Shown piece by piece: positions 13,196 to 40,210 of a DNA stretch of 64,000 bases (its first letter is position 1; each line of letters starts with the position of its first letter). The stretch is from Oscillospiraceae bacterium (lineage in GTDB: Bacteria > Bacillota > Clostridia > Oscillospirales > Oscillospiraceae), in the NCBI GenBank assembly GCA_017622995.1, contig JAGAQA010000005.1, forward strand, positions 33,001 to 97,000, read 5' to 3'. Both the position numbers and the translations under genes were made by a program. The notes under the pieces are model-generated. The model did not search any database, had not been told where the DNA came from, and was given only the letters and a program-made list of their open reading frames with translations.

Positions 13196-13599
13196 AAGAA
13201 CTGACCATTGCGGCAACGGTGGAAAATATCGGAACTGTGACGGAGTTTGTGAATGAACAGCTGGAAGCACTGGACTGTCCCATGAGGGCACAAATGCAGA
13301 TTGATATTGCCATCGACGAGTTGTTTGGAAATATTGCCCATTACGCCTATAATCCCGATGTTGGAAATGCTACAGTTCGGGTAGAGGTAACGGAGGAACC
13401 GCTGGCAGTGATCATTACCTTTATTGACGGCGGCGTGCCCTACGACCCGCTGAAGGCTGCGGATCCGGATATTACCCTATCTGCAGAGGAACGGCAGATA
13501 GGCGGACTGGGGATCTACATGGTGAAAAAGTCCATGGACGAAATTACTTACGAATATAAGGATGGAAAAAACATCCTGTCCATTAAGAAAAAATTGTAA
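13192..13599 (+). CDS. RsbW-like anti-sigma/serine kinase HATPase
   Basis: A 135-residue GHKL ATPase domain. The N box reads IAIDELFGNIAHYAY; G-type motifs FIDGGVPYDPLK and IGGLGIYMVKKSMD follow. It should phosphorylate the STAS partner and hold a target protein when the phosphatase is off. The start overlaps the phosphatase stop. Whether its target is the ECF sigma at 22142, another sigma factor or a non-transcriptional protein cannot be decided from sequence. Confidence 0.88.
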   Translation: MKELTIAATVENIGTVTEFVNEQLEALDCPMRAQMQIDIAIDELFGNIAHYAYNPDVGNATVRVEVTEEPLAVIITFIDGGVPYDPLKAADPDITLSAEERQIGGLGIYMVKKSMDEITYEYKDGKNILSIKKKL

Positions 13600-13627
13600 G
13601 GCAGTCAGCTTCGGGGGAGTGTATGAA

Positions 13628-14101
13628 ATGAACGAACAATTATTCCGCAAAAAGAGCATTGAACGGGTATCTTCCCCGGAACAGCTGGATGCTTATATCC
13701 GGGTGGCAAACCCCGGAGTTTGGCTGGTACTGATTGCCATTATAGTGCTGCTGGTGGGAGTCTGCGTCTGGGGAATCCTGGGGCATTTGGATACCACGAT
13801 AAGCGCTGTTGCGGTCTGTGAAAATGGTACCATGACACTGTATGTAAAAGATGAGGACGGAAAAAGTGCCCGGACAGGAATGGAAGTGCGGATTGGCGAG
13901 GATACCGCTTCTGTTACAGCCATTTCCCTGATGCCAATAAAAGCAGAGACAGAGTTAAGTGATTATATCCGTCATGTGGGCGGCTTCGGGGCAGAGGACT
14001 GGGTCTATGCTCTTCAGACTGACGCACAGCTGCCGGATGGTGTTTACAGCGCGAAAATCATTGTGGAAAGCGTGTCGCCCATGTCTTTTGTGGTGAATTG
14101 A
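13628..14101 (+). CDS. Short NHLM-type HlyD-like secretion adaptor
   Basis: 157 residues. The N-terminal half matches the start of NHLM bacteriocin-system HlyD-like proteins: LFRKKSIERVSSPEQLDAYI, then a single membrane segment (VWLVLIAIIVLLVGVCVWGI) and an outside beta region. Full-length relatives are usually about twice as long and contain a coiled-coil hairpin; this one goes straight to a short C-terminal beta domain and ends. The start at 13628 follows GGGGGAG; the open frame extends back into the HATPase gene but lacks a start signal. It is the first of three export genes, with 10 bp to the next. Confidence 0.8.
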   Translation: MNEQLFRKKSIERVSSPEQLDAYIRVANPGVWLVLIAIIVLLVGVCVWGILGHLDTTISAVAVCENGTMTLYVKDEDGKSARTGMEVRIGEDTASVTAISLMPIKAETELSDYIRHVGGFGAEDWVYALQTDAQLPDGVYSAKIIVESVSPMSFVVN

Positions 14102-14111
14102 GGTAGTGGTT

Positions 14112-16295
14112 ATGGGTAAGACAAAACCGATTTCCCAGCCGTTGACCAAAGGCGTTGCCAAGGTTCCGGTGGTCATGCAGATGGAAGCCCTGGAATGCGG
14201 TGCGGCCTCCCTGACCATGGTCCTGGCCTATTACGGAAAATGGCTTCCGTTGGAGCAGGTCCGCGCAGACTGCGGTGTGTCCCGGGATGGCTCCAACGCA
14301 AAAAATGTGCTGCGGGCAGCAAGAAGCTACGGTCTCAGTGCCAAGGGCTACCGCTTTGAGCCGGAGGATCTGAAAACCTACGGCAAATTTCCCTGTATCA
14401 TCCACTGGAATTTCAACCATTTTGTGGTGCTGAACGGTTTCAAAGGAGATAAGGCGGTACTGAACGACCCGGCCAAGGGCTGCTACAGTGTCCCAATGGA
14501 AACTTTTGACAAATCCTTTACAGGCATTTGTCTGATGTTTGAACCCACGGAAGACTTTGTGCCCGGCGGAACGCCCAGAAGTGTATGGGATTTTGCCATG
14601 GAGAAAGTGAAAGGTGCGGGAACCGCGGTTGCATTTACTGTGATTACCACGGTCATCGCCTCTTTGCTGGGGATCATCCAGCCGGCCTTCTCCCGAATTT
14701 TTCTGGACCGGCTGCTGACAGGAGTGAATCCCGGCTGGACAAATCCCTTCCTGTGGGCGCTGTCTGGTTTGGCGGTGGTCCAGATCATCCTTGCGTTTAT
14801 CCGGGCTGTATTTTCTGCCCGGCTCCATGCCAAGATCGCGGCGGTGGGCAGCACCGCTTATTTGTGGAAGGTACTACATCTTCCTATGGAATTTTTCTCC
14901 CAGCGGATGGCTGGTGATATTCAGCAGCGAATGGGGTCCAATGCCTCCATTGCGGAAAAATTGGTGAATACCCTGTCTCCCTTGGTAATCCAGGCGGCCA
15001 TGATGGTGTTCTATCTGGTGGTCATGGTGCGCTACAGTTTGCTGTTGACGCTGATCGGCGTGTTCTCCATCGTGATCAATCTGTTTGTGTCCCGGTATAT
15101 CTCCCGGAAGCGGGTGAATCTGACCCGGGTGCAGATGCGCGACAGCGGTAAGCTTTCCGGCACCACGGTAGCGGGCATCGAAATGATCGAGACCATCAAA
15201 GCCAGCGGTGCGGAGAATGGTTTCTTTGAAAAGTGGTCCGGTTATCAGGCCAGCGTCAATGCTCAGAAGGTGGCCTTCTCCCGTTTAAATCAGTATGTGG
15301 GCCTGATCCCCCAGATCGTGTCCACCCTGACGGATACGGCGGTGCTGATCCTTGGGGTCTGGCTGGTGATGGAGGGGCAGTTTACCATTGGTATGGTCAT
15401 GGCCTTTCAGGGCTTTTTGAGCAGCTTTACTGCCCCTGCTTCCCAGTTGATCGGGGCGGGGCAGACCATCCAGGAGCTGCGTACCGATATGGAGCGCATC
15501 GAGGACGTGATGCGCTATCCGGAGGATGCGGCCTGTGTGGATACACCGCTGGACGAAGATGCGGAATATGATAAGCTCTCCGGTGCGGTGGAACTGAAAA
15601 ACGTCACCTTCGGATATTCCCGGCTGGCGGAGCCTCTGATCCGGGATTTCAGCATGACGCTGAAGCAGGGCAGCCGGGTGGCTTTCGTGGGTGCTTCCGG
15701 CTGCGGAAAATCCACTTTGGCCAAGCTGATCTCGGGACTCTATCAGCCCTGGAGCGGTGAGATCCTCTTTGACGGAAAGCCACAGACTGCCATTGACCGC
15801 AGTGTGTTCACCGGTTCTCTGGCGGTGGTGGATCAGGATATTATCCTGTTTGAAGATACCATTGCCAACAATATCAAAATGTGGGATTCCTCCATCGAGG
15901 ATTTTGAAATGATCCTTGCGGCCCGGGATGCCCAGATCCACAGTGATATCATGCAGCGCGAAGGTGGCTACAACTATAAGCTCACCGAAGGCGGCAAGGA
16001 CTTATCCGGCGGACAGCGGCAGCGGCTGGAAATTGCCCGGGTGCTGGCCCAAGATCCCACCATTATCATTCTGGACGAAGCCACCTCTGCTTTGGATGCA
16101 AAGACGGAATATGATGTGGTGAAATCCATCCAGGACCGGGGCATCACCTGCATCGTGGTGGCCCACCGGCTGTCCACGATCCGGGACTGCGACGAGATCA
16201 TTGTGCTGGACCGGGGCAGGGTGGTGGAACGGGGTACCCACGAGGAACTGTATGCTCTGGGCGGTGCCTATACCAAACTGGTTACCAGTGATTGA
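14112..16295 (+). CDS. NHLM-type peptidase-containing ABC transporter (C39 peptidase, TM, ATPase)
   Basis: 727 residues. The N-terminal C39 peptidase has its catalytic Cys in EALECGAASL, His in FNHFVVLNG and Asp in LNDPAKG. Six membrane helices span about 160-440. The ATPase domain has GASGCGKST, LSGGQRQR and IIILDEATSALD. Such PCAT exporters cut the leader after a double glycine and pump the mature peptide out. Nine small genes with VSGG-type leaders follow within 5 kb, so they are the obvious cargo (inference). The start is ATG 14112, just after the adaptor stop; a GTG 6 bp earlier is possible. Confidence 0.93.
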   Translation: MGKTKPISQPLTKGVAKVPVVMQMEALECGAASLTMVLAYYGKWLPLEQVRADCGVSRDGSNAKNVLRAARSYGLSAKGYRFEPEDLKTYGKFPCIIHWNFNHFVVLNGFKGDKAVLNDPAKGCYSVPMETFDKSFTGICLMFEPTEDFVPGGTPRSVWDFAMEKVKGAGTAVAFTVITTVIASLLGIIQPAFSRIFLDRLLTGVNPGWTNPFLWALSGLAVVQIILAFIRAVFSARLHAKIAAVGSTAYLWKVLHLPMEFFSQRMAGDIQQRMGSNASIAEKLVNTLSPLVIQAAMMVFYLVVMVRYSLLLTLIGVFSIVINLFVSRYISRKRVNLTRVQMRDSGKLSGTTVAGIEMIETIKASGAENGFFEKWSGYQASVNAQKVAFSRLNQYVGLIPQIVSTLTDTAVLILGVWLVMEGQFTIGMVMAFQGFLSSFTAPASQLIGAGQTIQELRTDMERIEDVMRYPEDAACVDTPLDEDAEYDKLSGAVELKNVTFGYSRLAEPLIRDFSMTLKQGSRVAFVGASGCGKSTLAKLISGLYQPWSGEILFDGKPQTAIDRSVFTGSLAVVDQDIILFEDTIANNIKMWDSSIEDFEMILAARDAQIHSDIMQREGGYNYKLTEGGKDLSGGQRQRLEIARVLAQDPTIIILDEATSALDAKTEYDVVKSIQDRGITCIVVAHRLSTIRDCDEIIVLDRGRVVERGTHEELYALGGAYTKLVTSD

Positions 16296-16307: not shown

Positions 16308-18491
16308 GTGGGCTGGTTTGATGAACAGATCAAGGAAAGAAAACGAAAGGATGATGAGATTTTCTCCGAGGCCTTTGTGGGCATCGCCGATGCGGTGCTG
16401 GGTTCCCGGCTGGCATCTGTTTATTCCACAGAGGAAGAAAAGGCAGAGGACGCCATCGGAGAGATTCTGAAATACTACCATGTAAAGCCCCGGGAGGTTC
16501 CCTCTTCCATAAAGGGACTGAACGACCGGCTGGAATTTCTGCTGCGGCCCTACGGCATCATGCACCGCAGAGTGAAGCTGGAAACAGGCTGGCACCGGGA
16601 TGCCATTGGTGCCATGCTGGCAACCCGGAAGGACGACGGCACGGTGACAGCCCTGATCCCCAAAGGGCTTAGCGGCTATGTGTACTTTGACAATAAAAAC
16701 GGAAAATGGGCGAAGATCAGTCAAAAGAATGAAACGCTGTTTGAGGAAGAAGGCATCTGCTTCTATAAGCCTTTCCCTTTGAAAAAGCTGACCATCCCAT
16801 CCCTGATGCGCTATGTTTTGGATTGCCTGTCCCCGGCAGACCTGTCTCTGGTGGCCCTGGCCACCTTGGCAGTCTCCCTGGTGGGACTGCTGTCGCCGAA
16901 GCTGAACAGCCTGCTGTTCGGTACTGTAGTGGAAAGCGGTCAGCTGCGGCTGCTTGTTGGCATTGCGGTATTTCTGGTCAGTGCTGGAATCAGCCGCCTG
17001 CTGGTTAACGCGGTAAAGGCGTTGGTGGTGGAGCGGGCGAACACCAAAATCGACCTGTCCGTGCAGGCGGCCACCATGATGCGGATCCTGTCTCTGCCTG
17101 CGGACTTTTTCAAGAAATACAGCTCCGGCGATTTGGCATCCCGGACCGGGTATCTGCAGTCTCTGTGTAATATGCTGGTATCCGCGGTGCTGAATACGGG
17201 CCTGACTTCGGTGTTTTCTCTGCTGTACATTTCTCAAATCTTTGTGTATGCGCCGATGCTGGTGGTACCGGCTTTGAGCGTTACTCTGGTGACGCTGGTA
17301 TTTACGCTGGTCACCACCTTCTGCCAGATGAAGTTGACCCGGCAGCAGATGGAGCTTGCCTCCAAAGAAAGCGGTATGAGCTATGCTCTCATCACCGGCA
17401 TCCAGAAGATCAAACTTTCCGGTGCGGAGAAGCGGGCCTTTGCACGGTGGGCGGAAGTTTTCTCCCGGCGGCTGGCACTGACCGCCAATCCTCCCATGTT
17501 CCTGCGGGCCAATGCCGCCATTTCTGCGGCGATCTCTCTGACAGGAACAATTGTCATGTACTATTTCGCCTTGAAAAGCGGCATTTCCGTGGCGGAATAC
17601 TACGCCTTTAACACGGCCTACGGCATGATGTCCGGTGCATTTCTATCTCTGGCAGGCATTGCCTCAACGATTGCCCGGCTAAAGCCGGTGCTGGATATGG
17701 CAAAGCCCCTGATGGATACGGTTCCCGAGGTTTCCGAAGGCAAGGTGGTCATCGACCGGCTGTCCGGCGGCATCGAGCTGAACAATGTTTCCTTCCGATA
17801 TAACGAGTCCATGCCCATGGTCATTGACGATCTTTCTTTGAAGATCCGTCCGGGACAGTATGTGGCCATCGTGGGCAGCACCGGCTGCGGCAAGTCCACC
17901 CTGATGCGGCTGCTTCTGGGCTTTGAGAAACCCCAGAAGGGCGCTGTCTACTATGACGGCAAGGATCTGAATGCCATCGATCTGAAATCCCTACGGCAGA
18001 AAATCGGCGTGGTGATGCAGGACGGCAAGCTGTTCCAGGGAGATATCTTCTCCAATATCACCATTTCCGCACCTCAGCTGACTTTGAAAGAGGCCTGGGA
18101 GGCGGCGGAGATGGCAGGTGTTGCTGAGGATATCCGGGCCATGCCCATGGGGATGCACACCGTCATTTCCGAGGGCAGCGGCGGCATCTCCGGCGGCCAG
18201 CGGCAGCGGCTGATGATTGCCCGGGCCATTGCTCCCAAACCCAAGATACTGATGTTTGACGAGGCCACCTCGGCCCTGGACAATCTGACCCAGAAAACCG
18301 TGTCGGATTCTCTGGACAAGCTGAAATGCACGAGAATCGTCATCGCCCATCGTCTTTCCACCATCCGCCACTGTGACCGGATCCTCTATCTGGAAAAGGG
18401 GAAAATCCTGGAGGACGGCACCTATGAGGAGCTGATCGCCAGGGGCGGGAAGTTTGCTGATTTGGTGGAACGGCAGAGGTTGGACACATAA
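16308..18491 (+). CDS. NHLM-type ABC transporter, permease and ATP-binding protein without active peptidase
   Basis: 727 residues. The N-terminal region (about 1-175) is cytoplasmic and carries no Cys protease motif. Membrane helices span about 180-440. The ATPase domain is complete: GSTGCGKST, ISGGQRQR and ILMFDEATSALD. NHLM loci normally encode such a second ABC protein beside the peptidase-containing one, and the pair is thought to act as a heteromeric exporter. GTG start at 16308, 6 bp after GAGGAGGTGATG; the gap from the upstream stop is 12 bp, so the pair is one transcript. Confidence 0.92.
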   Translation: MGWFDEQIKERKRKDDEIFSEAFVGIADAVLGSRLASVYSTEEEKAEDAIGEILKYYHVKPREVPSSIKGLNDRLEFLLRPYGIMHRRVKLETGWHRDAIGAMLATRKDDGTVTALIPKGLSGYVYFDNKNGKWAKISQKNETLFEEEGICFYKPFPLKKLTIPSLMRYVLDCLSPADLSLVALATLAVSLVGLLSPKLNSLLFGTVVESGQLRLLVGIAVFLVSAGISRLLVNAVKALVVERANTKIDLSVQAATMMRILSLPADFFKKYSSGDLASRTGYLQSLCNMLVSAVLNTGLTSVFSLLYISQIFVYAPMLVVPALSVTLVTLVFTLVTTFCQMKLTRQQMELASKESGMSYALITGIQKIKLSGAEKRAFARWAEVFSRRLALTANPPMFLRANAAISAAISLTGTIVMYYFALKSGISVAEYYAFNTAYGMMSGAFLSLAGIASTIARLKPVLDMAKPLMDTVPEVSEGKVVIDRLSGGIELNNVSFRYNESMPMVIDDLSLKIRPGQYVAIVGSTGCGKSTLMRLLLGFEKPQKGAVYYDGKDLNAIDLKSLRQKIGVVMQDGKLFQGDIFSNITISAPQLTLKEAWEAAEMAGVAEDIRAMPMGMHTVISEGSGGISGGQRQRLMIARAIAPKPKILMFDEATSALDNLTQKTVSDSLDKLKCTRIVIAHRLSTIRHCDRILYLEKGKILEDGTYEELIARGGKFADLVERQRLDT

Positions 18492-18512
18492 AAAATATTT
18501 TTGGGAAAGTAT

Positions 18513-18538
18513 ATACCTTTTTGGTACTTGCTTCGTAT
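18513..18538 (+). promoter_or_regulatory. ECF-sigma-type promoter 1 (peptide genes)
   Basis: ATACC at 18513-18517, 16 bases, CGTAT at 18534-18538; 37 bases before the first peptide ATG. The same elements with identical spacing occur at 19256 and 21208. The CGTA-type -10 with 16-bp spacing is characteristic of ECF sigma factors, and one is encoded at 22142. Confidence 0.8.
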
Positions 18539-18575
18539 AAAGAGGCAAAGAAACAAAAACGAGGAGGATAACAAT

Positions 18576-18770
18576 ATGGAAAACAAGGAACTGAAGAAGC
18601 CCATCCCGGTGGAGCTGGATGATAATGCACTGGATACTGTCAGCGGCGGTACGGAACCTTCTCAGGACGAGGAATTCATAGGAGGGATGCCGATAGACCC
18701 GAGTAATCAGTATATTGAGTTTCAATTTTACTCTGAATATATAGAAGAAGCTGAGAAGCGTTCTAATTAA
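18576..18770 (+). CDS. Double-glycine leader peptide 1, acidic, no cysteines
   Basis: 64 residues. The leader MENKELKKPIPVELDDNALD ends in TVSGG (residues 21-25), the usual C39 cleavage signature. The predicted mature part of 39 residues starts TEPSQDEEF; it is strongly acidic and has no Cys. The ribosome site GAGGAGGATAACAAT precedes the ATG. It is the first gene of the peptide array, under ECF promoter 1 and 85 bp after the exporter. Unlike most siblings it lacks the CxxC pairs, so it may be a different class of cargo or a signal peptide. Confidence 0.8.
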   Translation: MENKELKKPIPVELDDNALDTVSGGTEPSQDEEFIGGMPIDPSNQYIEFQFYSEYIEEAEKRSN

Positions 18771-18809
18771 AAGTCCTATTGGTCATTGGCAAAACGGAGG
18801 AATCACAAT

Positions 18810-19082
18810 ATGGAAAACAAGAAACTGAAAAATCCTATGCTGAACGAGCTGGATGAGGATATGCTGGGCAATGTGTCCGGCGGTACGGAGGATGATGGCT
18901 GGTATTGGGGATTTGGATTTCCTCCGCATTATCTCAATGCCTGCCCCAAGTGTGGGGGTGGCGTATATTCCTGGCCCCTACCGGAATCCATGGGAGGTGG
19001 GATCGTCTTTGCTTGCGGTCCCTGCGACTGGGAAGGGCGTTCTGCCAGTGAATTGGCTCCCGGTTACATCTATAACGGGTGA
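18810..19082 (+). CDS. Double-glycine leader peptide 2 with CxxC/CxxC zinc-ribbon-like core
   Basis: 90 residues. The leader ends in LDEDMLGNVSGG (residues 14-25), followed by a Trp/Tyr/Gly-rich stretch (DGWYWGFGF) and a two-knuckle core: CPKCGGGVYS, then CGPCDWEG. Four Cys in two CxxC pairs about 23 residues apart is the spacing of a zinc ribbon. It is nearly a duplicate of peptide 6 (21554), differing at 20 of 90 positions. The ribosome site ACGGAGGAATCACAAT precedes the ATG. A decayed sigma-factor end follows, so this gene was part of a duplicated unit. Confidence 0.82.
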   Translation: MENKKLKNPMLNELDEDMLGNVSGGTEDDGWYWGFGFPPHYLNACPKCGGGVYSWPLPESMGGGIVFACGPCDWEGRSASELAPGYIYNG

Positions 19083-19100
19083 GCAAGACCGGCAAATCCT

Positions 19101-19230
19101 GTGCTGCTGCATTATGATAAGGGCATGCCCCTGAAAGCTGTGGCGGATGAATTGGAAATGTCCTACATAAACGCGAAGGTGACCCACAAAAAAGCCCTGT
19201 CCGGCCTGCGGCTTGCCATGGGCGCATAAA
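19101..19230 (+). pseudogene. C-terminal remnant of a second ECF sigma factor
   Basis: In frame, these codons read LLHYDKGMPLKAVADELEM and SYINAKVTHKKALSGL. They align with LLHYYKGLTLKEVADKMGM and SYINAKVIHKKALSGL at the end of the intact sigma factor (22142). Only region 4 remains, with no start. It lies directly after peptide 2, mirroring the peptide 6 to sigma order further right, and marks an ancient tandem duplication. Confidence 0.85.
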
Positions 19231-19255
19231 AATCAAAAATTTACCGGAAGGAATA

Positions 19256-19281
19256 TACCATCCGGGTATTTCCATCGTATC
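19256..19281 (+). promoter_or_regulatory. ECF-sigma-type promoter 2 (peptide 3)
   Basis: ATACC at 19256-19260, 16 bases, CGTAT at 19277-19281; 31 bases before the peptide 3 ATG. It has the same elements and spacing as promoters 1 and 3. Confidence 0.8.
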
Positions 19282-19312
19282 AATAGACAAAGAAATCAAG
19301 GAGGAAAACACC

Positions 19313-19597
19313 ATGGAAAACAAGAAACTGAATAACCCCATGCTGGATGAGCTGGATGATGATGCGCTGAGTAATGTGTCCGGTGGTGCAGATCCCAACT
19401 ATTATAGAAGCTGTACCGATTTTCTCTGCTTCTATTGCGGTTATCAAAGAACAGATTCGGGAGAAATGTCCCATGTGTGTCTAGGCAGGGGCTACCAAAC
19501 GGCGCACCGCTGTGATAATTGTAAGCATCTTCTGCGCTGCGACCATGGGCTGGCGTTTAAGGAAAAGGATGATGCAATAATGGGTATTGGGGGATAA
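19313..19597 (+). CDS. Double-glycine leader peptide 3, cysteine/histidine-rich
   Basis: 94 residues. The leader ends LDDDALSNVSGG (14-25). The mature part contains CFYCGYQ, then a Cys/His-rich middle (HVCLGRGYQTAHRCDNCKH), further Cys residues and a Lys/Asp tail; two CxxC motifs plus extra Cys and His could bind one or two metal ions. The ribosome site AAGGAGGAAAACACC is strong. It is the first gene after ECF promoter 2; its stop lies 3 bp before the next peptide gene. Confidence 0.8.
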   Translation: MENKKLNNPMLDELDDDALSNVSGGADPNYYRSCTDFLCFYCGYQRTDSGEMSHVCLGRGYQTAHRCDNCKHLLRCDHGLAFKEKDDAIMGIGG

Positions 19598-19600
19598 CAT

Positions 19601-19861
19601 ATGGAAAACAAAAATCAATTTGAACTGAACGATGATGTGCTGAATGCAGTTTCCGGCGGTGCCTTTGGCGATTGGGAAACCTGCCCCGTGTGTGGCAAGC
19701 CCAAGCGCGAGGGATATATCTGCATCCATTGTGATATGGCAGATGGCGTAGTAACCTGCTTCCGCTGCCGCAGCCCGCTGACACGGGAAGCCGGATGTGC
19801 CCACTGCGGCACGACCTGGGATGAATATCTTCAGATTACAGCGCCATTGCGCAGTGAATGA
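19601..19861 (+). CDS. Double-glycine leader peptide 4 with four CxxC motifs (double zinc ribbon)
   Basis: 86 residues. The leader is short and lacks the Lys-Pro segment (NQFELNDDVLNAVSGG). The mature part carries CPVCGK, CIHCDM, CFRCRS and CAHCGT at regular spacing, the layout of a double zinc ribbon. There is no membrane segment. The stop overlaps the ATGA of a longer possible start of the lipoprotein gene that follows, so the two are probably translated together. Confidence 0.82.
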   Translation: MENKNQFELNDDVLNAVSGGAFGDWETCPVCGKPKREGYICIHCDMADGVVTCFRCRSPLTREAGCAHCGTTWDEYLQITAPLRSE

Positions 19862-19878
19862 GAAAAGAGGAAATGAAC

Positions 19879-21195
19879 ATGAACATGAAGAAGAGCTTGA
19901 TTTGCATCCTGGCTGTATTTGCTCTGCTGCTTGCCGCCTGCGGACAGCAGGAAGCACCTGCAATGGAAACCGAACCGGATCGGGAGATCGATATCTGCCT
20001 GTCGGATTATTATGGCATGGTCGGCGTAATGAGAGCAGATATGGACGGCAATATGGAGTACTGCGAATTCAATGCCATCAGCGTCCTGGGCGCCCCCGGT
20101 GAGATCATTCTGGATCGTTTTACCAGCAATGGCTTTTCCGAAATTGTCCCCGTCCTGGAGGGCGACAGCCTTGAGGGCTGGATGGAGTGCCGCTATGATG
20201 ACGAGCTGGGCCATTATGTCATCGTATCCGAGACCCTTTATACTACCGAGGAACTGATGGCAATGCCTGTTCCCGGAGAGTCTGTGGAATATGTGGCCAA
20301 GTGGGCAGGAATACCCGTGGAAGAATACTTCATAAGCGATCCTTTTGAAGGTGCCTCTTCCAGCGGCGTCTTCAACCTCAGCGCCAACGGGGGCAGCATG
20401 GGGTTCCGCACCTCTGACGGCAGTGAATATACCTCCGGCATCTACGGATACACTCTGGAAGAGGGTGAGTCCCTCAACGATGTGATGGGAACCGAGTTTA
20501 ATGACACACTCGTTGATATCAGCAAGGAGGGTGCTGCATTTACCGGCTGGTCTGTGTACATGGCAGAGGATCTCTTCCTGAGCCATGAGATCGTGGAAGA
20601 AGAGGACATGCTGTGTCTGGTTTTCGATGAAAACGGCTATGAGGGTGTTGTGTATGCGCTTTTGAGAAATGCCGCCTTGGTAGATGAGAATATGTCCACC
20701 GAGGACCTGTGCGGCATCACCTGTAATGGTGAGAACTACCTGGCTATGGCAAACTGGGAAAGCAGCGCAGGGAATGCAGCCCATACTATTCCCTCTGTCT
20801 TCGCATTCAGTGCCAACGGCGGCAGCATTCACTTCCACAATTATGCTGACGAAGAATATAAGACCGTTGCTTATGCCTACGGTCTGGAGTATGGCCAGGC
20901 TCTCAATGATGTGATGGGTACGGAATACGGCGATGCCCTCATTGGAATGAGCAAGGACAGCGCGGAGTTTTTGGGCTGGACCCTTTATGTGGCAGACGAG
21001 ATCACCTGGAGCAGGGACGAGGTATACGATACTGAGATCCTGTGCCTGCCCTATAATGACGCAGGCTCCCAGGGCATGAACTATGCACTTTTGAAGAACG
21101 GCTCCCTGGTGGGAGAATATATGCCCACGGAACAGCTGTGCGGCATGACCACCTACGGCGAGAACTACCTGGCCATCGCGATCTGGTCCGAATAA
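19879..21195 (+). CDS. Secreted lipoprotein with two internal repeats, unknown function
   Basis: About 438 residues. A signal peptide ends in the lipobox LLAAC, then a Glu-rich linker. Two homologous blocks of about 120 residues follow an N-terminal region: NLSANGGSMGFRTSDG ... SLNDVMGTEFNDTL and AFSANGGSIHFHNYAD ... ALNDVMGTEYGDAL, each ending in (T/C)xGENYLA. The fold is not recognised. It sits within the peptide array, so it may be an immunity or receptor protein for the exported peptides (inference). Starts at 19858, 19873, 19879 and 19885 are all possible; 19879 fits best the spacing from AGAGG. Confidence 0.75.
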   Translation: MNMKKSLICILAVFALLLAACGQQEAPAMETEPDREIDICLSDYYGMVGVMRADMDGNMEYCEFNAISVLGAPGEIILDRFTSNGFSEIVPVLEGDSLEGWMECRYDDELGHYVIVSETLYTTEELMAMPVPGESVEYVAKWAGIPVEEYFISDPFEGASSSGVFNLSANGGSMGFRTSDGSEYTSGIYGYTLEEGESLNDVMGTEFNDTLVDISKEGAAFTGWSVYMAEDLFLSHEIVEEEDMLCLVFDENGYEGVVYALLRNAALVDENMSTEDLCGITCNGENYLAMANWESSAGNAAHTIPSVFAFSANGGSIHFHNYADEEYKTVAYAYGLEYGQALNDVMGTEYGDALIGMSKDSAEFLGWTLYVADEITWSRDEVYDTEILCLPYNDAGSQGMNYALLKNGSLVGEYMPTEQLCGMTTYGENYLAIAIWSE

Positions 21196-21207
21196 AGAAA
21201 AAAGAAG

Positions 21208-21233
21208 ATACCGTTTGCTTATCTTCATCGTAT
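21208..21233 (+). promoter_or_regulatory. ECF-sigma-type promoter 3 (peptide 5 to sigma factor)
   Basis: ATACC at 21208-21212, 16 bases, CGTAT at 21229-21233; 33 bases before the peptide 5 ATG. It would also read through to the sigma gene at 22142, giving positive autoregulation. Confidence 0.8.
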
Positions 21234-21266
21234 AAAGGATTGAAGAGATAACAGGAGGAAAACAAT

Positions 21267-21503
21267 ATGAAAAACAAGAAACTGAAAAATCCTATTCTGA
21301 ATGAGCTGGAGGAGGATGTGCTGAGCAATGTCTCCGGCGGTAACAGTGAGGATATTTATGCCACATGCCCGTATTGTTGCTGCTATATCTTTCTGACTAT
21401 CAATAATGTGCCCGTTCCCAAAGAGGAAATAAAGTGTTCCTACTGCGGTTATAAGGACGGCGATCCCAGTACCATTCCAAACATGGAAGACATAATCGGT
21501 TGA
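21267..21503 (+). CDS. Double-glycine leader peptide 5 with zinc-ribbon-like core
   Basis: 78 residues. The leader is MKNKKLKNPILNELEEDVL then SNVSGG; the mature part has CPYCCCYIF and CSYCGYKDGD, two CxxC pairs about 24 residues apart with two extra Cys in the first knuckle. The ribosome site ACAGGAGGAAAACAAT precedes the ATG. It is the first gene under ECF promoter 3. Confidence 0.82.
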   Translation: MKNKKLKNPILNELEEDVLSNVSGGNSEDIYATCPYCCCYIFLTINNVPVPKEEIKCSYCGYKDGDPSTIPNMEDIIG

Positions 21504-21553
21504 TCGAGATATGATAGAGGAATGATTCTGATAAGGTAAGGAGAGAAATCAAT

Positions 21554-21826
21554 ATGCAGAATAAGGAACTGAAAAATCCCATGCTCAATGAGCTGGATGA
21601 GGATATGCTGGGCAATGTGTCTGCTGGTACGGACGATGATGGCTGGTATTGGGGATATGGATATCCTCCAAACTATCTCAACGCCTGTCCGAAATGCGGC
21701 GGTGGTGTGTATTCCATGCCCGTACCGGAATCCCTGGGAGGCGGGGCCAGCTATACCTGCGGTCCCTGCGGCTGGAAAGGCCGTTCTACAGCGGAATTTG
21801 CTCCCGGATACACTTATAATGGCTAA
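21554..21826 (+). CDS. Double-glycine-type peptide 6 (AG at the cleavage site), duplicate of peptide 2
   Basis: 90 residues, aligned without gaps to peptide 2 (18810). The CPKC and CGPC pairs and the DGWYWG stretch are kept. The leader ends NVSAGTD rather than NVSGGTE: the first Gly of the pair is Ala. C39 peptidases usually need Gly at -2 and Gly/Ala/Ser at -1, so processing may be weaker or shifted. The ribosome site AAGGAGAGAAATCAAT precedes the ATG. Confidence 0.78.
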   Translation: MQNKELKNPMLNELDEDMLGNVSAGTDDDGWYWGYGYPPNYLNACPKCGGGVYSMPVPESLGGGASYTCGPCGWKGRSTAEFAPGYTYNG

Positions 21827-21830
21827 TTAG

Positions 21831-21917
21831 GTAAGCGGTGGAGCAAGCGATGCGGAAACAGCTCTGGAAAACGAATACATCAAGGATGAAATGATGATTA
21901 TCATCCCCATTATTTGA
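21831..21917 (+). pseudogene. Leaderless remnant of another double-glycine peptide gene
   Basis: Directly after peptide 6, in one frame, the codons read VSGGASDAETALENEYIKDE and end at a TGA after MMIIIPII. The VSGG hinge and an acidic mature part are present, but the leader and start codon are gone, apparently deleted when the peptide 6 copy was joined here. Confidence 0.6.
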
Positions 21918-21929
21918 GAGAGGGCAACT

Positions 21930-22145
21930 ATGGAACAGAAACTGAAAAAATTGTTTGATTATCAGAAATTCCAGCGCAATTCCCGGCTGGACGCCATGCT
22001 GGCAGAAGCGGAAGGCCGCTGTGCAGAAGTGGACGAGGATGCCTTGGAGCTGGTCAACGCCGCAGGAGATGACTCTCTGATGGAACATGGAATTGTCGAA
22101 GGAGTAGATCCTGTGGGGGCTTTTATGGTGGAGGACCTGCTATGA
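21930..22145 (+). CDS. Small protein coupled to the ECF sigma factor (candidate anti-sigma or regulator)
   Basis: 71 residues, soluble, no membrane segment. It begins MEQKLKKLFDYQKFQRNSRL and has an acidic second half with VDEDALELVNAAGDD, which echoes the leader consensus (LDDDAL.NVSGG) with AAG in place of GG. Its stop overlaps the sigma ATG (ATGA at 22142-22145), the usual arrangement for a sigma factor and its partner. The role is inferred from position only; it could also be a degenerate member of the peptide family. Confidence 0.7.
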   Translation: MEQKLKKLFDYQKFQRNSRLDAMLAEAEGRCAEVDEDALELVNAAGDDSLMEHGIVEGVDPVGAFMVEDLL

Positions 22146-22612
22146 CTGCCGCAGCAGAGGTTATTTACCTTTCCTATCACGATAAAGTGTCCGCATACAT
22201 CAAGGGAAAGGTAGAGAATCACTACGATGCGGAGGACTTGGTTTCCCAGGTCTTTGAGAAGGTTTATGGCAAGCTCCACACCTTCGACGAAACCAAAGCA
22301 TCTCTGTCCACCTGGATCTATACCATCACCCGCAACACGGTGACGGACTACTACCGTACTCGCCGTATTCATGCGATCTACGATGAAGCTTGTGAACGGC
22401 CTGACCCGGAACAGGACCAGGATGTGCTGGATGCCCTGGCCGATGCTCTGATGACCCTGAAAGTGCAGGAACGGGACCTGATATTGCTGCACTACTACAA
22501 GGGCTTGACCCTGAAGGAAGTGGCGGACAAAATGGGAATGTCCTACATAAACGCGAAAGTGATCCACAAAAAGGCCCTCAGCGGACTGAAAACCTATTTT
22601 CAGGAGGATTAA
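22142..22612 (+). CDS. ECF-subfamily RNA polymerase sigma factor
   Basis: 156 residues. Region 2 covers about 10-75 (YDAEDLVSQVFEKVYGKL, STWIYTITRNTVTDYYRTRR) and region 4 about 100-150 (QERDLILLHYYKGLTLKEVA, SYINAKVIHKKALSGL). There is no region 3, as expected for ECF factors. It directs RNA polymerase to a small set of promoters; the three ATACC-N16-CGTAT sites in the same locus are the natural candidates. It is coupled to the small protein upstream and followed by peptide 7 after 3 bp. Confidence 0.92.
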   Translation: MTAAAEVIYLSYHDKVSAYIKGKVENHYDAEDLVSQVFEKVYGKLHTFDETKASLSTWIYTITRNTVTDYYRTRRIHAIYDEACERPDPEQDQDVLDALADALMTLKVQERDLILLHYYKGLTLKEVADKMGMSYINAKVIHKKALSGLKTYFQED

Positions 22613-22615
22613 TAT

Positions 22616-22798
22616 ATGGAAAATAAGAAATTTGAACTGAATGATGAGGCATTGGATGCGGTTTCCGGTGGTTATTGGGGGGATGAATACGCACCTAATT
22701 GCCCCAATTGCAATATTAAAATGAGGACTATCTACATCAATACGTTCCCGGTTTATAACTGTGGTTCCTGCGGTCATATAATCGAGATACAGCCGTAA
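22616..22798 (+). CDS. Double-glycine leader peptide 7 with compact zinc ribbon
   Basis: 60 residues. A short leader KFELNDEALDAVSGG; the mature part of about 41 residues holds CPNCNIKM and CGSCGHI, 20 residues apart. This is the most compact zinc-ribbon-like member. The gene starts 3 bp after the sigma stop, with AGGAGG inside the sigma gene's last codons. Confidence 0.82.
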   Translation: MENKKFELNDEALDAVSGGYWGDEYAPNCPNCNIKMRTIYINTFPVYNCGSCGHIIEIQP

Positions 22799-22852
22799 CT
22801 GCAGACATCCAAACTCCCGGATTTTACTCAAAACAGAATAGGAGCGCGACTT

Positions 22853-23140
22853 ATGGAGAACAAGAAATTTGAACTGAATGATGCGCAGCTTGACAATGTT
22901 TCCGGCGGCCTGTTGGATGGTCTTTTTGGTTATACGGAAGAACCTACCCCCGCAGCAGCAAAGCGTGGGCTGACAGCCGGCTTGGTCTTTGATACCCAGC
23001 GCAGCTGCATCAGCTGCGGTGAAACCCACTACCGCGTCAAGGATTTTCATAAAGACGACAGAAAACTTCGTGTAGTATGCAGTGGCTGCGGAAGCCCCGG
23101 CTACTGGGACTACGAAATTTATGACACCTGGAAGGTATAG
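22853..23140 (+). CDS. Double-glycine leader peptide 8 with zinc-ribbon-like core
   Basis: 95 residues. The leader is KKFELNDAQLDNVSGG. After a spacer (LLDGLFGYTEEPTPAAAKRG) come CISCGETHY and CSGCGSPGYWDYE, 25 residues apart. The ribosome site AGGAGCGCGACTT precedes the ATG. The region between the knuckles is Lys/Asp/Arg-rich. Confidence 0.82.
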   Translation: MENKKFELNDAQLDNVSGGLLDGLFGYTEEPTPAAAKRGLTAGLVFDTQRSCISCGETHYRVKDFHKDDRKLRVVCSGCGSPGYWDYEIYDTWKV

Positions 23141-23156
23141 ATCGAAAGAGGTCAAT

Positions 23157-23258
23157 ATGGCAGGAATCAAAAAATGGATTCTGGAACTGGATGGCGGCAT
23201 GCTGGACGCGGTTTCCGGTGGCGGCGGTAGTGTGGTGCAGTGGATAAACAATAGGTAA
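23157..23258 (+). CDS. Double-glycine leader peptide 9, 33 residues
   Basis: A very short gene reading MAGIKKWILELDGGMLDAVS then GGGGSVVQWINNR. The leader logic (LDGGMLDAVSGG) is kept and the predicted mature part is only about 11 residues, without Cys. The ribosome site GAAAGAGGTCAAT precedes the ATG. The TAA overlaps the ATG of the permease gene (TAATG), so its translation may set permease expression. It could be a pheromone-like peptide (inference). Confidence 0.65.
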   Translation: MAGIKKWILELDGGMLDAVSGGGGSVVQWINNR

Positions 23259-25064: not shown

Positions 25065-25667
25065 ATGAAAATCTACGGGATTCAAATTCGGACGGTTGAA
25101 AAAATACCCTGCGGACATCTCATGAACCTGATGCCCAATCGATACACACGAGCGCTGAAATACTTGCGCAGGGAAGACCGCCTGCGCTGCCTGGGTGCAG
25201 GATTACTGATGCACCGCGTGCTGGGCATCGATGAGCGTGAGCTGAAATACGGTGCATATGGGAAACCCTATGCACCGGGTAAGGCCGAATTCAGTATTTC
25301 CCACGGCGGGAACTGGGCAATCCTTTCGGCGGATCGTCATCCGGTGGGCGTGGACATCGAACCCATGAACGATGCCAATCTTTCTGTTGCTCGAAGGGTG
25401 TTCACGGCGGAGGAATTGTTCTGGATGCAGCAGGATCCACTTCCTCGCTTTCATATCCTGTGGACGATCAAGGAAAGCATTATGAAGGCTACAGGCCTTG
25501 GCCTTCAGATGGATCCGGCGCGGTTTTCTGTTCTTCCTATAGATGGACCGAAATGTGTCCATGAACAAATATGGCATACAGCCTGGCTTCTGCACGAAGG
25601 CTGTGCGGTTGCCTGCGCGTCCGCAAACATCATCGATGGCCTGGAATTCGAAGAAATATTATATTGA
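25065..25667 (+). CDS. 4'-phosphopantetheinyl transferase, Sfp type
   Basis: A 200-residue enzyme that moves phosphopantetheine from CoA to the Ser of carrier domains. The family motifs are VGVDIEPMN (Mg-binding Asp and Glu) and LWTIKESIMKATGLGL (the WxxKES signature). It is expected to activate the three carrier domains of the 27034 NRPS and the one in the 4124 protein. It is followed after 11 bp by the MATE exporter and then the NRPS, so it begins a biosynthetic operon. Confidence 0.93.
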   Translation: MKIYGIQIRTVEKIPCGHLMNLMPNRYTRALKYLRREDRLRCLGAGLLMHRVLGIDERELKYGAYGKPYAPGKAEFSISHGGNWAILSADRHPVGVDIEPMNDANLSVARRVFTAEELFWMQQDPLPRFHILWTIKESIMKATGLGLQMDPARFSVLPIDGPKCVHEQIWHTAWLLHEGCAVACASANIIDGLEFEEILY

Positions 25668-27033: not shown

Positions 27034-30000
27034 ATGTACAATACAAATAAAGCACCCCTGAGTCAGACTCAGATGGGTATTTACGCAGAAAACATAGCTT
27101 TTCCGGAGTCCACCCAGTATAACATACCTCTTCTGGGAAAACTGGGGGAGGATATCTCCGTTGAAAGGCTGAAGTATGCCATCACAAAGGCGGGTCAGGC
27201 GCATCCCGGCCTGAATACCCGCATCTATATGGATGAAAACGGCGAGGTGCTGCAGCAGGTCTCCGATGATATCTGCATTGTGGATGTGATAGAAATGTCC
27301 GATGCGGAGTTTGCACAGCGCAGGGAAGAACTGGTGCGTCCCTTCAATCTGATGGGAGAGCGCCTGTATAGGTTCGAAATATATACCACGCCCTCGGGAA
27401 ATTATTGGTTCCAGGATATCCACCATATCATTTTTGATGGAGCCGGTTTGAGTATCCTGTCCCGGGATATCCGCAGAGCCTATGACGGGGAAGAAATCGA
27501 AACGGAAAGCCATACCGGTATCGATATTGCCCTGGAGGAAATGCAGGCGCGGCAAGGGGAAGAATATATCCGTGCACGGGAATACTACGGCTGCCTGTTG
27601 AATGAATGCGAAACGGACTCTTTGCCGGTTCGGGATGTATTTGATAAAACACCCCGGCAAGGCTGGCTGAGCCACAAGTTCCAGATGGACGAGGCGGCGT
27701 TCAAGGCTTTCCGCAGGGAAGCAGGAGTTTCTACCACTGCTTTCTTTACCGGCGTGATGGGATTCCTGACTGCGAAATACAATTACCGCGACGACAGTGT
27801 GATTGCCACCATCTACAACGGCCGGAAAACCGAAAAAACGAAAAACACACTGTCCATGCTGGTCAAGACCCTGCCCTTTGTCACCGACCTCAGCGGCAAT
27901 CCGGCCATTCGGGATGTGCTGAAGAAGGCGACGGAGCAACTGGCGGAAAGCCGGAAGAACGACTTGTATTCCTTTGCGGAAATCGCTGCGGAATACGGCG
28001 TGACTGCGGATATCAGCTTCGGCTACCAGGGCCGCATACTGAACTACCGGATGATGGATGGCGCGGGCATCCGGGCCGAGCGCATCTATGATAAACGGCA
28101 TATTGAAAATACCGCCATCCTGATGGAACTGTCCGAGCTGGGCGAAGGCTGGTATGAAATCCATATGGGCTACCGCGGGGATATGTTCAGCCGCGGCTTT
28201 GCCGAAAATATGGCCCGCACATACGCAAAGGTCGCACAGGAATTCCTCACGAAGGAATCTATAAATGATGTGGATCTGGCCGATGAGGCCGCTGCTGATC
28301 AGATTGAAGCCTTCAATCGGACGGAATTCCCCTTCGACCAGGAAAAGACTGTGATTGATCTCTTCCGCGATCAGGCGCATCTCCGCCCGGATCACACTGC
28401 GCTGGTGTATCTGGACAAAAAATATACATACAGAGAGCTGGATGAAATCACTGACAGGCTCGCCATGCACCTGCGCAGCATTGGCATTGAGAAGGAAAAA
28501 ATTGTGGGAGTATTGATTCCCCGGTGCGAATATATGGTGATCTGCTCCTTGGGCATTCTGAAGGCCGGCGGCGCATATCTGCCGCTGGATCCCACCTATC
28601 CGCCGGAGCGGCTGAACCTGCTGATGGAGGATACCAACGCCAAGGTTCTGATTACCACGCCTGAACTGAGCTCTATCATCGGCGAGGAACACGGCTGTGA
28701 GCGTATCATGGTCAGTGAAATCCCGGATATGCGCAATACCGGTGAGCCGTTACCGCCTCCTGTCAAGGAGGACCTGTTCGTCATGCTCTATACCTCCGGT
28801 TCCACCGGTCTTCCCAAGGGTGTGATGCTGGAGCACGGCAATGTTGCAGCGCTGTGCGACTGGACGCGGCGTTATTTCGGCGTGGATGAAAATACTGTCA
28901 GTGCGGAATACGCCAGCTATGGCTTTGACGCACACATGAACGATACCTATCCTGAACTGATCAGCGGCGGCACGGTGCACATTGTGGATGAAAGCATCCG
29001 TCTGGACTTGGTTCAGCTACAGAAATATTACAACGAACAGGGGATTACGCATACCACAATGACCACCCAGGTGGGCCGCCAGTTTGCACTGATGGATGGG
29101 ACTGCCAGCCTGAAGCATCTCACTGTCGGTGGCGAAAAGCTGGTACCCTTTGACCCTCCGGCCTATCATTTCTATAATGCATATGGACCCACAGAGGGCT
29201 GCATGTGTGCAACGGTTCAGAGACTTGACAAAAAATACGAAGATGTACCCATCGGTCCGGCGATGGACAATTTGAAGCTCTATGTGGTGGACAAGCAGGG
29301 TAAGCTGCTGCCAGCAGGCGCAGCGGGTGAGCTCTGGATTTCCGGACGCCAGGTGGCGCGGGGCTATCTGAACCGTCCGGAACAGAGTGAGGCGGCCTTT
29401 ACTGCCAACCCCTTCTGTGATCAGGAGGGCTACGAGCGCGTCTACCACACCGGTGATGTTGTGCGTTATATGGAGGATGGCCGACTGCAGTTCATCGGCA
29501 GACGGGACAGCCAGGTGAAGATCCGCGGCTTCCGCATCGAGCTGACCGAGGTGGAGGAGATTATTCGCCGCTTCCCGGGCATCAAGGATGCAACCGTTGC
29601 AGCCTTTGATGAGGCTTCCGGCGGTAAATATATCGCTGCCTATATTGTTTCAGATGAAACCATTTCCATCGATGCTCTGAATGATTTCATACTACAGGAA
29701 AAGCCGCCGTATATGGTTCCGGCAGTGACCATGCAGATCGAGGCCATTCCCATGACCCAAAATCAGAAGGTGAATAAGCGTGCACTGCCCAAGCCGGTGA
29801 AGCAGGCAGTGGAACTCGTTGCCCCTGAAACGCAGCTCCAGAAGCGAATCTTTGGCTGTCTGGCGGATGCGATCGGTCATCAGCAATTTGGCATTACCAC
29901 GGACATTTACAATGCAGGTCTTACCTCGATCGGCGCGATTCGCCTGAATGTGTTACTCTCCAAGGAATTTGATATTGCCGTTAAGACCTCCGATTTGAAG

Positions 30001-38373: not shown

Positions 38374-39945
38374 ATGAAGCAGCTTTCTTCTTCTGAACTG
38401 AATAACATGAGCAAAGAAGATCTGGCTGCCATGGTGCTCCAGATGCAGCAGCAAATCAATACCCTCAATGAGAAAGTAGCTATTCTCAATGCCCGGCATT
38501 TTGGCCGTTCTACGGAGAAGCTGGAGACTCTGCCCGGTCAGATGAATATCTTCAATGAAACAGAAGTGGCCGCAGTTGAGGCCATTGCGGAGCCTGCCAT
38601 TGAGCAGGTGGTAGTCCGCAGAAAAAAGAAAAAGGGTCAGCGTAAGGAAGACCTGAGCAGACTGCCCAAGCGCATTGAAAACCATGAGCTGACCAAGGAG
38701 CAGCTGAAAGTCATCTTTGGTGAAAACGGCTGGAAACGTCTTCCGGATGAAGTGTACAGCCGGGTGGAATACCAGCCTGCCGTTAAAGAAGTGGTGGAAC
38801 ACCATGTGGCAGTTTATGCTGCGAAGAAGAACGATGTGGATACCATTGTTCGTGCTGGCCGTCCTGTGGATTTGCTGAGAAACAGCATTGCTACACCTTC
38901 TCTGGTGGCCGCCATTATGAATGCCAAGTATACCAATGCCATTCCTCTGTACCGGATTGCCCAGGACTTTGAGCAGAGTGACATGATCCTGGGAAGGGCT
39001 ACTATGGCGAACTGGGTCATCCGCTGTTCTGAGCGGTATCTGAGTCTGGTATATGACAGTTTGCAGAAACACCTACGCAGTCAAACAATTATCCAGGCGG
39101 ATGAAACCACCTGCCAGGTGACAAAGGATGGCCGCCCCAGCGATGTCAAGTCCTATATGTTTGTCTACCGGACTTCTGAGCATTGAAGGGAAAAGCCGGT
39201 CATCCTGTACCAATATGAAAAAACCAGGAGCAAGAGCAATATCCAGAAGTTCTTGACTGGTTTCTCCGGTACACTGGTTTCGGATGCATTCAGTGGATAC
39301 AAATCGCTGGACAAGAATGATGAGAATATCCGCTCTGCGTTCTGCTGGGCTCATGCCCGGAGAGACTATGCCGATGCACTGAAAGCATTAAAGGGCGAAG
39401 ACAAAAATTATGCCCATGAGACTGTTGCCCACAAAGCATTGGTGCAAATCGCCGCGATTTACAAAGCGGAAGAAGCACTGAAGAACCTGACAGCAGAAGA
39501 ACGATATTCTCGCCGCCAGAGAGAGGTAAAGCCTCTTGTGGAGGCTTACTTTGTATGGGTTCACGAACAGGATCCAGCAACCATCCTCAGCCAGAAGACC
39601 CGGGATGGCTTGAACTACAGCATGAACCAGGAGAAGTATCTGAAGGTATTCCTGGAGGATGGGAATATCCCGATCGACAATTCCGCAACAGAGCGTGCCA
39701 TCCGACCCTTTACCATTGGCAGAGCCAACTGGCATATCATTGACACCATCTACGGTGCCGAAGCCAGTGCAACGATCTACAGTCTGGTTGAAACCGCCAA
39801 GGCGAATAAGTTAAAGATCTACGAATACCTGAAGCATCTGCTGACAGAAATCCCGAAGCATATAGATGACACCAGCATGGACTTCCTGGAAGACCTGCTC
39901 CCCTGGTCGGAGAAGCTGCCGGAGGAATGCCACAAAAAGATTTGA
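38374..39945 (+). pseudogene. tnpC: IS66-family transposase TnpC, interrupted by an in-frame TGA
   Basis: The first part (38374-39186) has the leucine-zipper-like N-terminus, the Lys-rich zinc-finger-like linker and the first catalytic Asp in IIQADETTCQV. A TGA at 39184-39186 follows YMFVYRTSEH. The same frame then continues without other stops (REKPVILYQYEKTRSK, SDAFSGYKSLDK, IPIDNSATERAIRPFTIGR) to 39945. Both DDE-domain halves are otherwise well preserved, so this is a single nonsense change. Confidence 0.92.
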
Positions 39946-40049
39946 ATATGACCAACGGGGCTCCATCCGGAGCCCCGCATTTTATTCGGTCAAGGTACTT
40001 ATGGTTGAACGTTTACGTATCCTAGCGGAGCAAGGTTTATTAGTCGAAT

Positions 40050-40094
40050 GTGCCCAAAAACAAAAACGCCCCGGTTCATGGCGAACCGGGACGC
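40050..40094 (-). terminator. Orphan terminator, minus strand
   Basis: CCCGGTTC and GAACCGGG pair around a short loop; on the minus strand the stem is followed by GCGTTTTTGTTTTT. No gene now reads into it; it seems left over from DNA displaced by insertions. Confidence 0.6.
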
Positions 40095-40170
40095 GATATT
40101 AAGACATATTTGTTTATCGAATATTAGTCCGATATGGACATTTCATTTGTTGCAAAATGATATATACAAG

Positions 40171-40210
40171 AACCCGGAGGTCGTAGGTTCGAGTCATGCC
40201 TCCGCAACCA
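40171..40210 (+). other. tRNA 3'-end fragment with encoded CCA
   Basis: The sequence AGGTCGTAGGTTCGAGTCAT has the layout of a variable loop and T arm (loop TTCGAGT), followed by a seven-base acceptor strand CTCCGCA, a discriminator A and CCA. The T stem has one mismatch. No D arm or anticodon arm lies upstream. tRNA 3' ends are common integration targets, so this may be an old attachment-site duplicate. Confidence 0.6.

Follow-up and report, generated by a model that had tools for sequence, protein, structure and literature searches.

The window analysed here is a stretch of 64,000 nucleotides from an Oscillospiraceae bacterium (assembly GCA_017622995.1, contig JAGAQA010000005.1, positions 33,001 to 97,000), and it carries, at positions 18513-23258, an array of genes for small proteins with double-glycine (GG) leaders, placed behind an ATP-binding cassette (ABC) exporter of the NHLM type. 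Our analysis of the sequences supports the view that zinc-ribbon-like proteins with GG leaders, encoded beside an NHLM exporter and, in the window, together with a locus-encoded extracytoplasmic function (ECF) sigma factor, represent a recurrent type of cargo. We consider it probable that this locus makes and secretes small unmodified proteins that are stabilised by zinc and are cut and exported by the NHLM system.

The array described in the original prediction was confirmed in its coordinates, leaders, exporter, sigma gene and promoters, with some corrections. Nine genes with closely related GG leaders were found at 18576-23258, and these, like all other genes and motifs of the locus, lie on the plus strand. 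All nine leaders end in the manner of class II bacteriocin GG leaders, with Leu at -12, Leu at -7 and Val at -4; the ending VSGG, which had been assigned to all of them, was present in eight, and the peptide at 21554 has VSAG, placing AG instead of GG at -2/-1. At least two CxxC motifs were present in seven peptides (18810, 19313, 19601, 21267, 21554, 22616 and 22853), one more than previously counted, and the remaining two (18576 and 23157) contain no Cys. Peptide 1 (18576-18770, leader VSGG) is one of the Cys-free products and peptide 9 (23157-23258; 33 residues) is the other. Peptides 2 (18810-19082) and 6 (21554-21826) both contain CPKC and CGPC and are 78% identical, with a ratio of nonsynonymous to synonymous substitution (dN/dS) of 0.20. 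Peptide 3 (19313-19597) has seven Cys and two CxxC, and peptide 4 (19601-19861) has four CxxC, as had been noted, with weak Pfam matches to double zinc ribbons (E about 0.009, under the cut-off). The motifs are CPYC and CSYC in peptide 5 (21267-21503), CPNC and CGSC in peptide 7 (22616-22798), and CISC and CSGC in peptide 8 (22853-23140). The same interval also holds a 445-residue lipoprotein gene (19858-21195; lipoprotein by eye), a gene for a 71-residue protein and the remnant of a second sigma gene, which were missing from the earlier description.

The exporter lies upstream of the array as stated, although the C39 subunit is not its direct neighbour: the immediately adjacent gene encodes the peptidase-less partner subunit ABC2 (16308-18491; TIGR03797, 735.5 bits, cut-off 709.4), which is preceded by ABC1, the C39 peptidase/ABC exporter (14106-16295; TIGR03796, 956.7 bits, cut-off 853.3). 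With both models over their cut-offs, ABC1 and ABC2 are an NHLM exporter pair. Residues Q25, C31, H105 and D121 of ABC1, which we take to be the C39 catalytic residues, were invariant across a six-row ABC1 alignment.

The array also proved to contain its own ECF sigma factor gene (22142-22612; TIGR02937, 96.4 bits, cut-off 42.9) and three exact copies of the promoter motif ATACC-N16-CGTATMAA, located upstream of peptide 1 (18513-18541), peptide 3 (19255-19283) and peptide 5 (21208-21236), as had been proposed. In shuffled sequence, a mean of only 0.07 matches was expected at up to one mismatch. The shorter pattern ATACC-N16-CGTAT had seven matches in the whole genome, three of which were the array copies, and the reversed control pattern had three. 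A one-mismatch match at 26949 in the window was set aside as chance, as was a full-motif match in another locus of the same genome (L010), which ends inside a coding frame. Scans for sigma-70 promoters and terminators added nothing. Traces of duplication were apparent within the array: the sigma-gene remnant (about 19105-19198) consists of 94 nucleotides that match the 3' part of the sigma gene with 83% identity, and the DNA block 18481-18658, comprising the promoter and the leader of peptide 1, is 72% identical to a block ending at 19395 in peptide 3. The promoter-leader blocks of these two peptides are alike and their cores are unlike, indicating that leaders were copied while cores were exchanged.

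We surveyed 140 exporter loci (numbered with L; genomes with G), made up of 60 stretches, 59 of them fetched by exporter and one (L051) by a peptide match, and 80 named loci from gut-type metagenome-assembled genomes (MAGs) of Clostridia, for many of which the sample names point to ruminants and rabbits. Within the genus, 5 of 136 genomes had a TIGR03796 exporter, and within the family 54 of 400 did (E 1e-150). Positions -7, -2 and -1 were fixed by the leader finder, and three rounds of first-order Markov shuffles served as the control. The finder returned 188 GG-leader candidates, compared with 3.7 per shuffled set, and 46 of the open reading frames had at least two CxxC, compared with none in the three rounds. 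All 46 were on the exporter strand, as were all 29 candidates with one CxxC and 102 of the 113 without any. The leader-plus-CxxC pattern, which the original prediction proposed to search for along with its link to NHLM exporters, is recurrent in these loci. The 46 proteins came from 18 of the 140 loci; the rate among the 80 named loci is biased in that they were picked with six ABC1 rows from zinc-cargo loci (by the strict or a looser count). One of the 18 (L142) duplicates L060, as spotted from their shared cores, and duplicates among loci without such cores could remain; dropping L142 and adding the window left 49 distinct cores in 18 loci, and Leu occupies -12 in 41 of these 49 proteins. 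Six of the 60 stretches qualified as zinc-cargo loci, including L051, which we infer to be the continuation of L050, ABC2 being split at both contig ends. These counts are lower bounds, as the finder missed at least L063:9143, L115:10579, L119:15516, L124:16635 and L125:15531.

The closest full relative was L115, from a roe deer cecum MAG, with an ABC1 that is 81% identical to that of the window. It was the only locus of another genome to contain the promoter motif, which precedes both the partner and sigma genes, located immediately behind ABC2, and the peptides; it has no fewer than six GG proteins with at least two CxxC (five counted and one at 10579). The single homologue of the 445-residue lipoprotein in the searched set (116.6 bits) also resides inside the L115 array (11805-12998); it looks secreted and has a C-terminal lysozyme-inhibitor LprI domain (E 3.8e-13). 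The window lipoprotein itself had no Pfam match at E 0.1. A search of the genus with peptide 2 found it in 2 of 101 genomes, including that of the window, and a search of viral contigs with the same peptide found no relative. Among the compared sequence pairs, five of seven had a dN/dS of 0.10-0.26.

A zinc-ribbon-like character of the cores was suggested by the spacing and surroundings of their Cys residues. In 89 cores with at least two Cys (excluding a CxC-GGGG family), the CxxC gap was observed 130 times, compared with 26.6 in shuffled cores. Across the 49 cores, Gly follows 62 of the 113 CxxC, and Pro is the first inner residue in 33. CPxCG knuckles are typical of zinc ribbons. When the 49 proteins were scanned one by one against Pfam (E 0.01), 50 families were matched and 15 of the 25 listed have zinc ribbon or zinc finger names, with Zn_Ribbon_TF matching six proteins, IS1595 five and YjdM three. 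The best E-value, 1.7e-6, belonged to peptide 7 of the window, which scored over the gathering scores of PF12760 (28.3, cut-off 25.4) and PF13453 (26.6, cut-off 22). An alignment of peptide 3 with nine relatives (from L051, L119, L124, L125 and L155) contained four invariant Cys forming two CxxC pairs; in a second alignment, which omitted L051 and included two further relatives, three of these Cys were invariant. Zinc binding by the CxxC cores is therefore probable on the evidence of sequence.

Several observations weigh against secretion of unmodified zinc proteins, and they concern the cores, the exporters and the modifying enzymes. No Pfam family matched more than six of the 49 proteins, only one of the seven CxxC peptides in the window (22616) passed a zinc-ribbon gathering score, and the matches of the other members were weak. 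AlphaFold2 models had low confidence both for peptide 3, modelled with eight relatives, and for peptide 4, modelled with two (mean predicted local distance difference test scores of 46.7 and 48.1), and a PDB sequence search with two peptides reached a best E of 0.14, which is at chance level. One sequence pair had a dN/dS of 0.69. Another, the GG peptides L058:10399 and L059:10307, had 9.2, with almost no synonymous change (tiny counts) and eight amino-acid differences in 73, for which fast adaptive change is possible. A simple C39 motif check failed for 2 of 19 exporters of zinc-cargo loci, the L063 row apparently starting late and the L053 row having a substitution in the pattern. The array is so tightly packed that, aside from the lipoprotein, 71-residue and sigma genes, the gaps between peptides are too small for an immunity gene beside each product, and none was found, which disfavours an ordinary bacteriocin.

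The original prediction had stated that no enzyme for ribosomally synthesised and post-translationally modified peptides (RiPPs) is present in the locus. This holds for the window, in whose locus no known RiPP-modifying enzyme of the radical S-adenosylmethionine (SAM), LANC_like or YcaO kind was found, but not for the cargo type. A radical SAM/SPASM family, first seen as PF04055 matches inside arrays, was linked to GG peptides in 21 NHLM loci (over 430 bits; mostly 465-515 residues, for example L051:6381-7808; no NCBIfam equivalog over its cut-off among the matches listed), and 8 of the 18 zinc-cargo loci contained it. L155 has a different radical SAM gene, near unlike peptides, and in G486 and G533, the genomes from which L060 and L140 come, a more distant member lies outside the locus (325 and 319 bits). 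Taken together, these occurrences make modification likely for part of the type. At E 1e-10 the window genome had no member of the family, nor did G041, G410 and G534, and in G348, G519 and G526 it had weak matches only. LANC_like was absent at E 1e-5 from all 18 genomes searched and YcaO at E 0.001 from all nine, the window's genome being included in each.

It could accordingly be argued that the array encodes precursors of a radical-SAM-modified RiPP of the ranthipeptide or sactipeptide type, whose enzyme was lost from the window or acts from elsewhere and whose Cys residues are thioether donors. Besides the co-occurrence just described, including the other or more distant family members associated with L155, L060 and L140, this proposal is favoured by L117, which has the radical SAM/SPASM family and a peptide leader closely resembling, by eye, that of window peptide 1, and by the genome of the window, which encodes 16 radical SAM matches in all. 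None of the four SPASM proteins of this genome is encoded within the window; one is, presumably, a SCIFF-maturase-like protein, and the gene for one is on the contig of the window, about 34 kb upstream of ABC1. The enzyme, however, does not track the paired CxxC, which occur with and without it. What it tracks is the presence of some cargo beginning with Cys or Gly-Cys, found in all eight loci with the enzyme and in one of the ten without (Fisher p 4e-4; an association noticed post hoc among related loci, with L155 counted as lacking the enzyme). No such start occurs in the window cargo, the family is absent from the window genome and from three others with zinc-type cargo, and the CPxCG knuckles are a trait of zinc ribbons. 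The enzyme may therefore act on the N-terminal Cys, the CxxC pairs being common to both kinds of cargo, and we regard thioether modification of the window peptides as unlikely. Secreted zinc scavengers (zincophores), depriving rivals of the metal or supplying it to the producer, would agree with the several Cys clusters per protein and the many proteins per locus. Scavenging would not need cores with so little in common besides the knuckles (mean column identity of 16% over the 49 proteins, leaders included), two of the nine window peptides have no Cys, and no zinc importer was recognised among the larger open reading frames of the window, which were read by eye with no dedicated scan; we think this explanation quite improbable.

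Zinc ribbons are usually intracellular, and some of the Pfam matches were to transcription-type ribbons, both of which would suit cytoplasmic regulators that use the leader as a docking segment only. Such proteins would hardly carry a complete GG leader with the known contact positions, nor would all 75 candidates with CxxC be co-oriented with the exporter, nor would LysM and CW_7 domains follow leaders of this kind in sister loci, so that we give a cytoplasmic role very little credence. Exported Cys-rich bacteriocins usually form disulfides, and secreted proteins whose CxxC pairs are joined internally or to one another by disulfides, with no zinc, would follow that precedent; the CxxC spacing with its following Gly fits zinc knuckles instead, and an odd count of Cys was found in 21 of the 49 cores, which leaves the disulfide proposal with slighter credence still.

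We therefore favour secretion of unmodified, zinc-stabilised proteins, for which the following course of events can be envisaged. The locus-encoded sigma factor would recognise the promoter motif and transcribe the array from its three copies; in L115, the same motif precedes the sigma operon and the cargo. The C39 domain of ABC1 would cut after the leader and the exporter would release the core, of 41-76 residues in the seven CxxC peptides. Export and cleavage of the GG proteins are likely given that their leader positions match the contacts described for PCAT1 (PMC6959990). The seven CxxC cores would then fold around zinc through their CxxC knuckles, and in the reducing, anoxic gut zinc may do the work that disulfides do elsewhere. 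Once outside the cell, the cores would affect other bacteria, competition being the most likely role given that leaders were kept while cores were swapped and diversified; swapped cores behind constant leaders would suit many targets. As a function for such secreted zinc proteins, competition is a plausible though uncertain assignment; metal capture appears rather doubtful and signalling a little more so, other or unknown functions making up the remainder. In L141, two cores (17095 and 17563) have, by eye, an amphipathic, helix-like segment ahead of the ribbon, a feature compatible with membrane action, and neighbouring GG proteins (L141:16604-19533) have amphipathic-looking helices alone.

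The sigma gene is preceded by the gene for the 71-residue partner (21930-22145), whose stop overlaps the sigma start and whose product has a leader-like segment ending in AAG. Using a profile of six homologues of this protein, we searched 140 sources (the window and 139 relatives) and found 32 family members, 31 of which were near a sigma homologue, a number that a second measure put at 29; of the 37 sources with sigma homologues, six had no partner. AAG was present in all 32 members, as AAGG in three of them, and in 18 members it was in the exact register of the cargo leader, with the -12, -7 and -4 residues kept and Ala-Ala replacing Gly-Gly. Only 2 of 178 cargo leaders had Ala at -2, where the finder demanded Gly or Ala. 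Relatives of the partner include L115:7448-7630 and L153:14983-15171. These features make it possible that the partner is a decoy leader linking the sigma factor to the exporter, or an anti-sigma factor; alternatively, it might itself be exported as a further product, given the AG site of peptide 6.

Paired CxxC cores were not the only recognisable cargo. Of 29 GG proteins without paired CxxC, a subset chosen to favour LysM/CW_7-type domains, eight had CW_7 (best E 5.9e-31) and eight had LysM (best E 1.9e-18); loci with GG-leader LysM and CW_7 proteins were L072, L073, L075, L076, L186; L070, L074, L079 and L103. LysM and CW_7 bind peptidoglycan, indicating that such cargo would be useful only outside the cell, and these proteins are candidate secreted cell-wall-binding mini-domains. 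The peptides with repeated CxC and GGGG are a different Cys-rich cargo, seen as 12 GG peptides near a radical SAM gene in L176 (5597-9478) and also in L111 and L143. On a FastTree phylogeny of usable ABC1 sequences from 134 of 140 sources (the window and 139 relatives), a supported clade of 72 rows contained 17 of the 19 zinc-cargo rows, and another such clade, of 32, contained all eight LysM/CW_7 rows. The zinc label, which on this tree also covers cores with CxC plus CxxC (L058 and L069), was barely clustered (16 changes, compared with a shuffled mean of 18.0; 37 of 500 shuffles were as low), and we therefore do not claim a single origin. Radical SAM genes and zinc cargo had no significant link on the tree (median p 0.22), where many cut contigs are among the loci labelled 'none' and any radical SAM gene past a contig end would go unseen.

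On a broader and doubtful proposal, NHLM exporters of gut Clostridia would serve generally to secrete small folded domains (zinc ribbons, LysM and CW_7) carried on a GG leader, with cargo freely swapped, and the sigma factor would sense the load of the exporter through its decoy-leader partner: a peptidase occupied by cargo would displace the decoy and thereby change sigma output. If true, the decoy-leader partner would be a new coupling of transcription to secretion.

Class II bacteriocins are unmodified small products whose GG leader is cleaved. The window peptides share the GG leader with them, and peptides 1 and 3 have weak matches, under the cut-off, to the bacteriocin signal model TIGR01847; they differ in their CxxC knuckles and in having no immunity gene by each product. 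In the account by Haft et al. (2010; PMC2887384), NHLP/Nif11 precursors exported by NHLM systems are precursors of modified peptides, such as thiazole/oxazole-modified microcins (TOMMs) and lanthionine peptides. The window resembles that description in its TIGR03796/TIGR03797 exporters, its paralogous array and its GG leaders with acidic residues, Leu and Val; it differs in that no TOMM or lanthionine enzyme was found, that the short leaders of all nine peptides matched neither the NHLP (TIGR03793) nor the Nif11 (TIGR03798) precursor model, and that most cores are zinc-ribbon-like. Nif11-like leaders are present in relatives, for example at L141:18183 (PF07862, just under the cut-off). The NHLP/Nif11-like clusters of anaerobes described in PMC4289311 also combine a C39 exporter, leaders ending in VAGG/VSGG and radical SAM genes, as L119 and L124 do, but their leaders are 66-85 residues long, zinc is unmentioned in that text, and the window locus has no radical SAM gene. 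MAM of Faecalibacterium prausnitzii is, according to passages of PMC8836110, a small GG-motif protein encoded beside a C39 exporter in some strains; its authors suggest export by that peptidase-containing ABC transporter (PCAT), and MAM peptides without the N-terminal part occur in culture fluid. Compared by description and not by homology, the window likewise has small GG proteins by a C39 exporter in a gut Clostridia species, whereas MAM is a single protein for which those passages mention no zinc motif. PCAT1 exports CtA by means of a 24-residue leader contacted at -12, -7 and -4, the positions shared by the window leaders, and its 66-residue cargo is not specifically bound, so that different cargos can share one signal (PMC6959990, in part); CtA is one substrate, is unstructured inside the transporter and has no zinc motif mentioned in that part of the paper. 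The exporter kind, small GG proteins by C39 exporters and radical SAM genes in NHLP/Nif11-like clusters are thus already known from PMC2887384, PMC8836110 and PMC4289311. Among the abstract openings of the open-licence PubMed Central literature, no report of GG-leader zinc-ribbon, LysM or CW_7 cargo was found.

Upstream of the exporter, the locus encodes a SpoIIE-type phosphatase (11363-13195; PF07228, E 3e-54), an RsbW/SpoIIAB-like kinase of the anti-sigma type (13192-13599; PF13581, E 2.1e-19; RsbW was the best NCBIfam match, under its cut-off) and a short HlyD-like accessory protein of 179 residues (13562-14101). The last matched positions 1-47 of the 421 in TIGR03794 with 46.4 bits, below the cut-off of 156.2, and its homologues adjoin ABC1 in most of the 60 compared loci. 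Elsewhere in the window, a very large NRPS-like (nonribosomal peptide synthetase) gene lies at 27034-37350, a phosphopantetheinyl-transferase-like gene at 25065-25667 and, on the opposite side of the exporter locus, a separate NRPS-like gene at 4124-7033, both NRPS readings having been made by eye. A mobile-element region at 38374-46903 contains, also by eye, transposase-like frames and two adjacent large serine-recombinase-like genes.

NHLM loci are currently annotated as bacteriocin export and serve as a source in mining for modified peptides. Should some of their cargo consist of unmodified zinc ribbons together with cell-wall-binding domains, many gut loci would be misread, and a class of secreted gut mini-proteins would become testable. 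The NHLM exporter may then be a general secretion route for small folded proteins.

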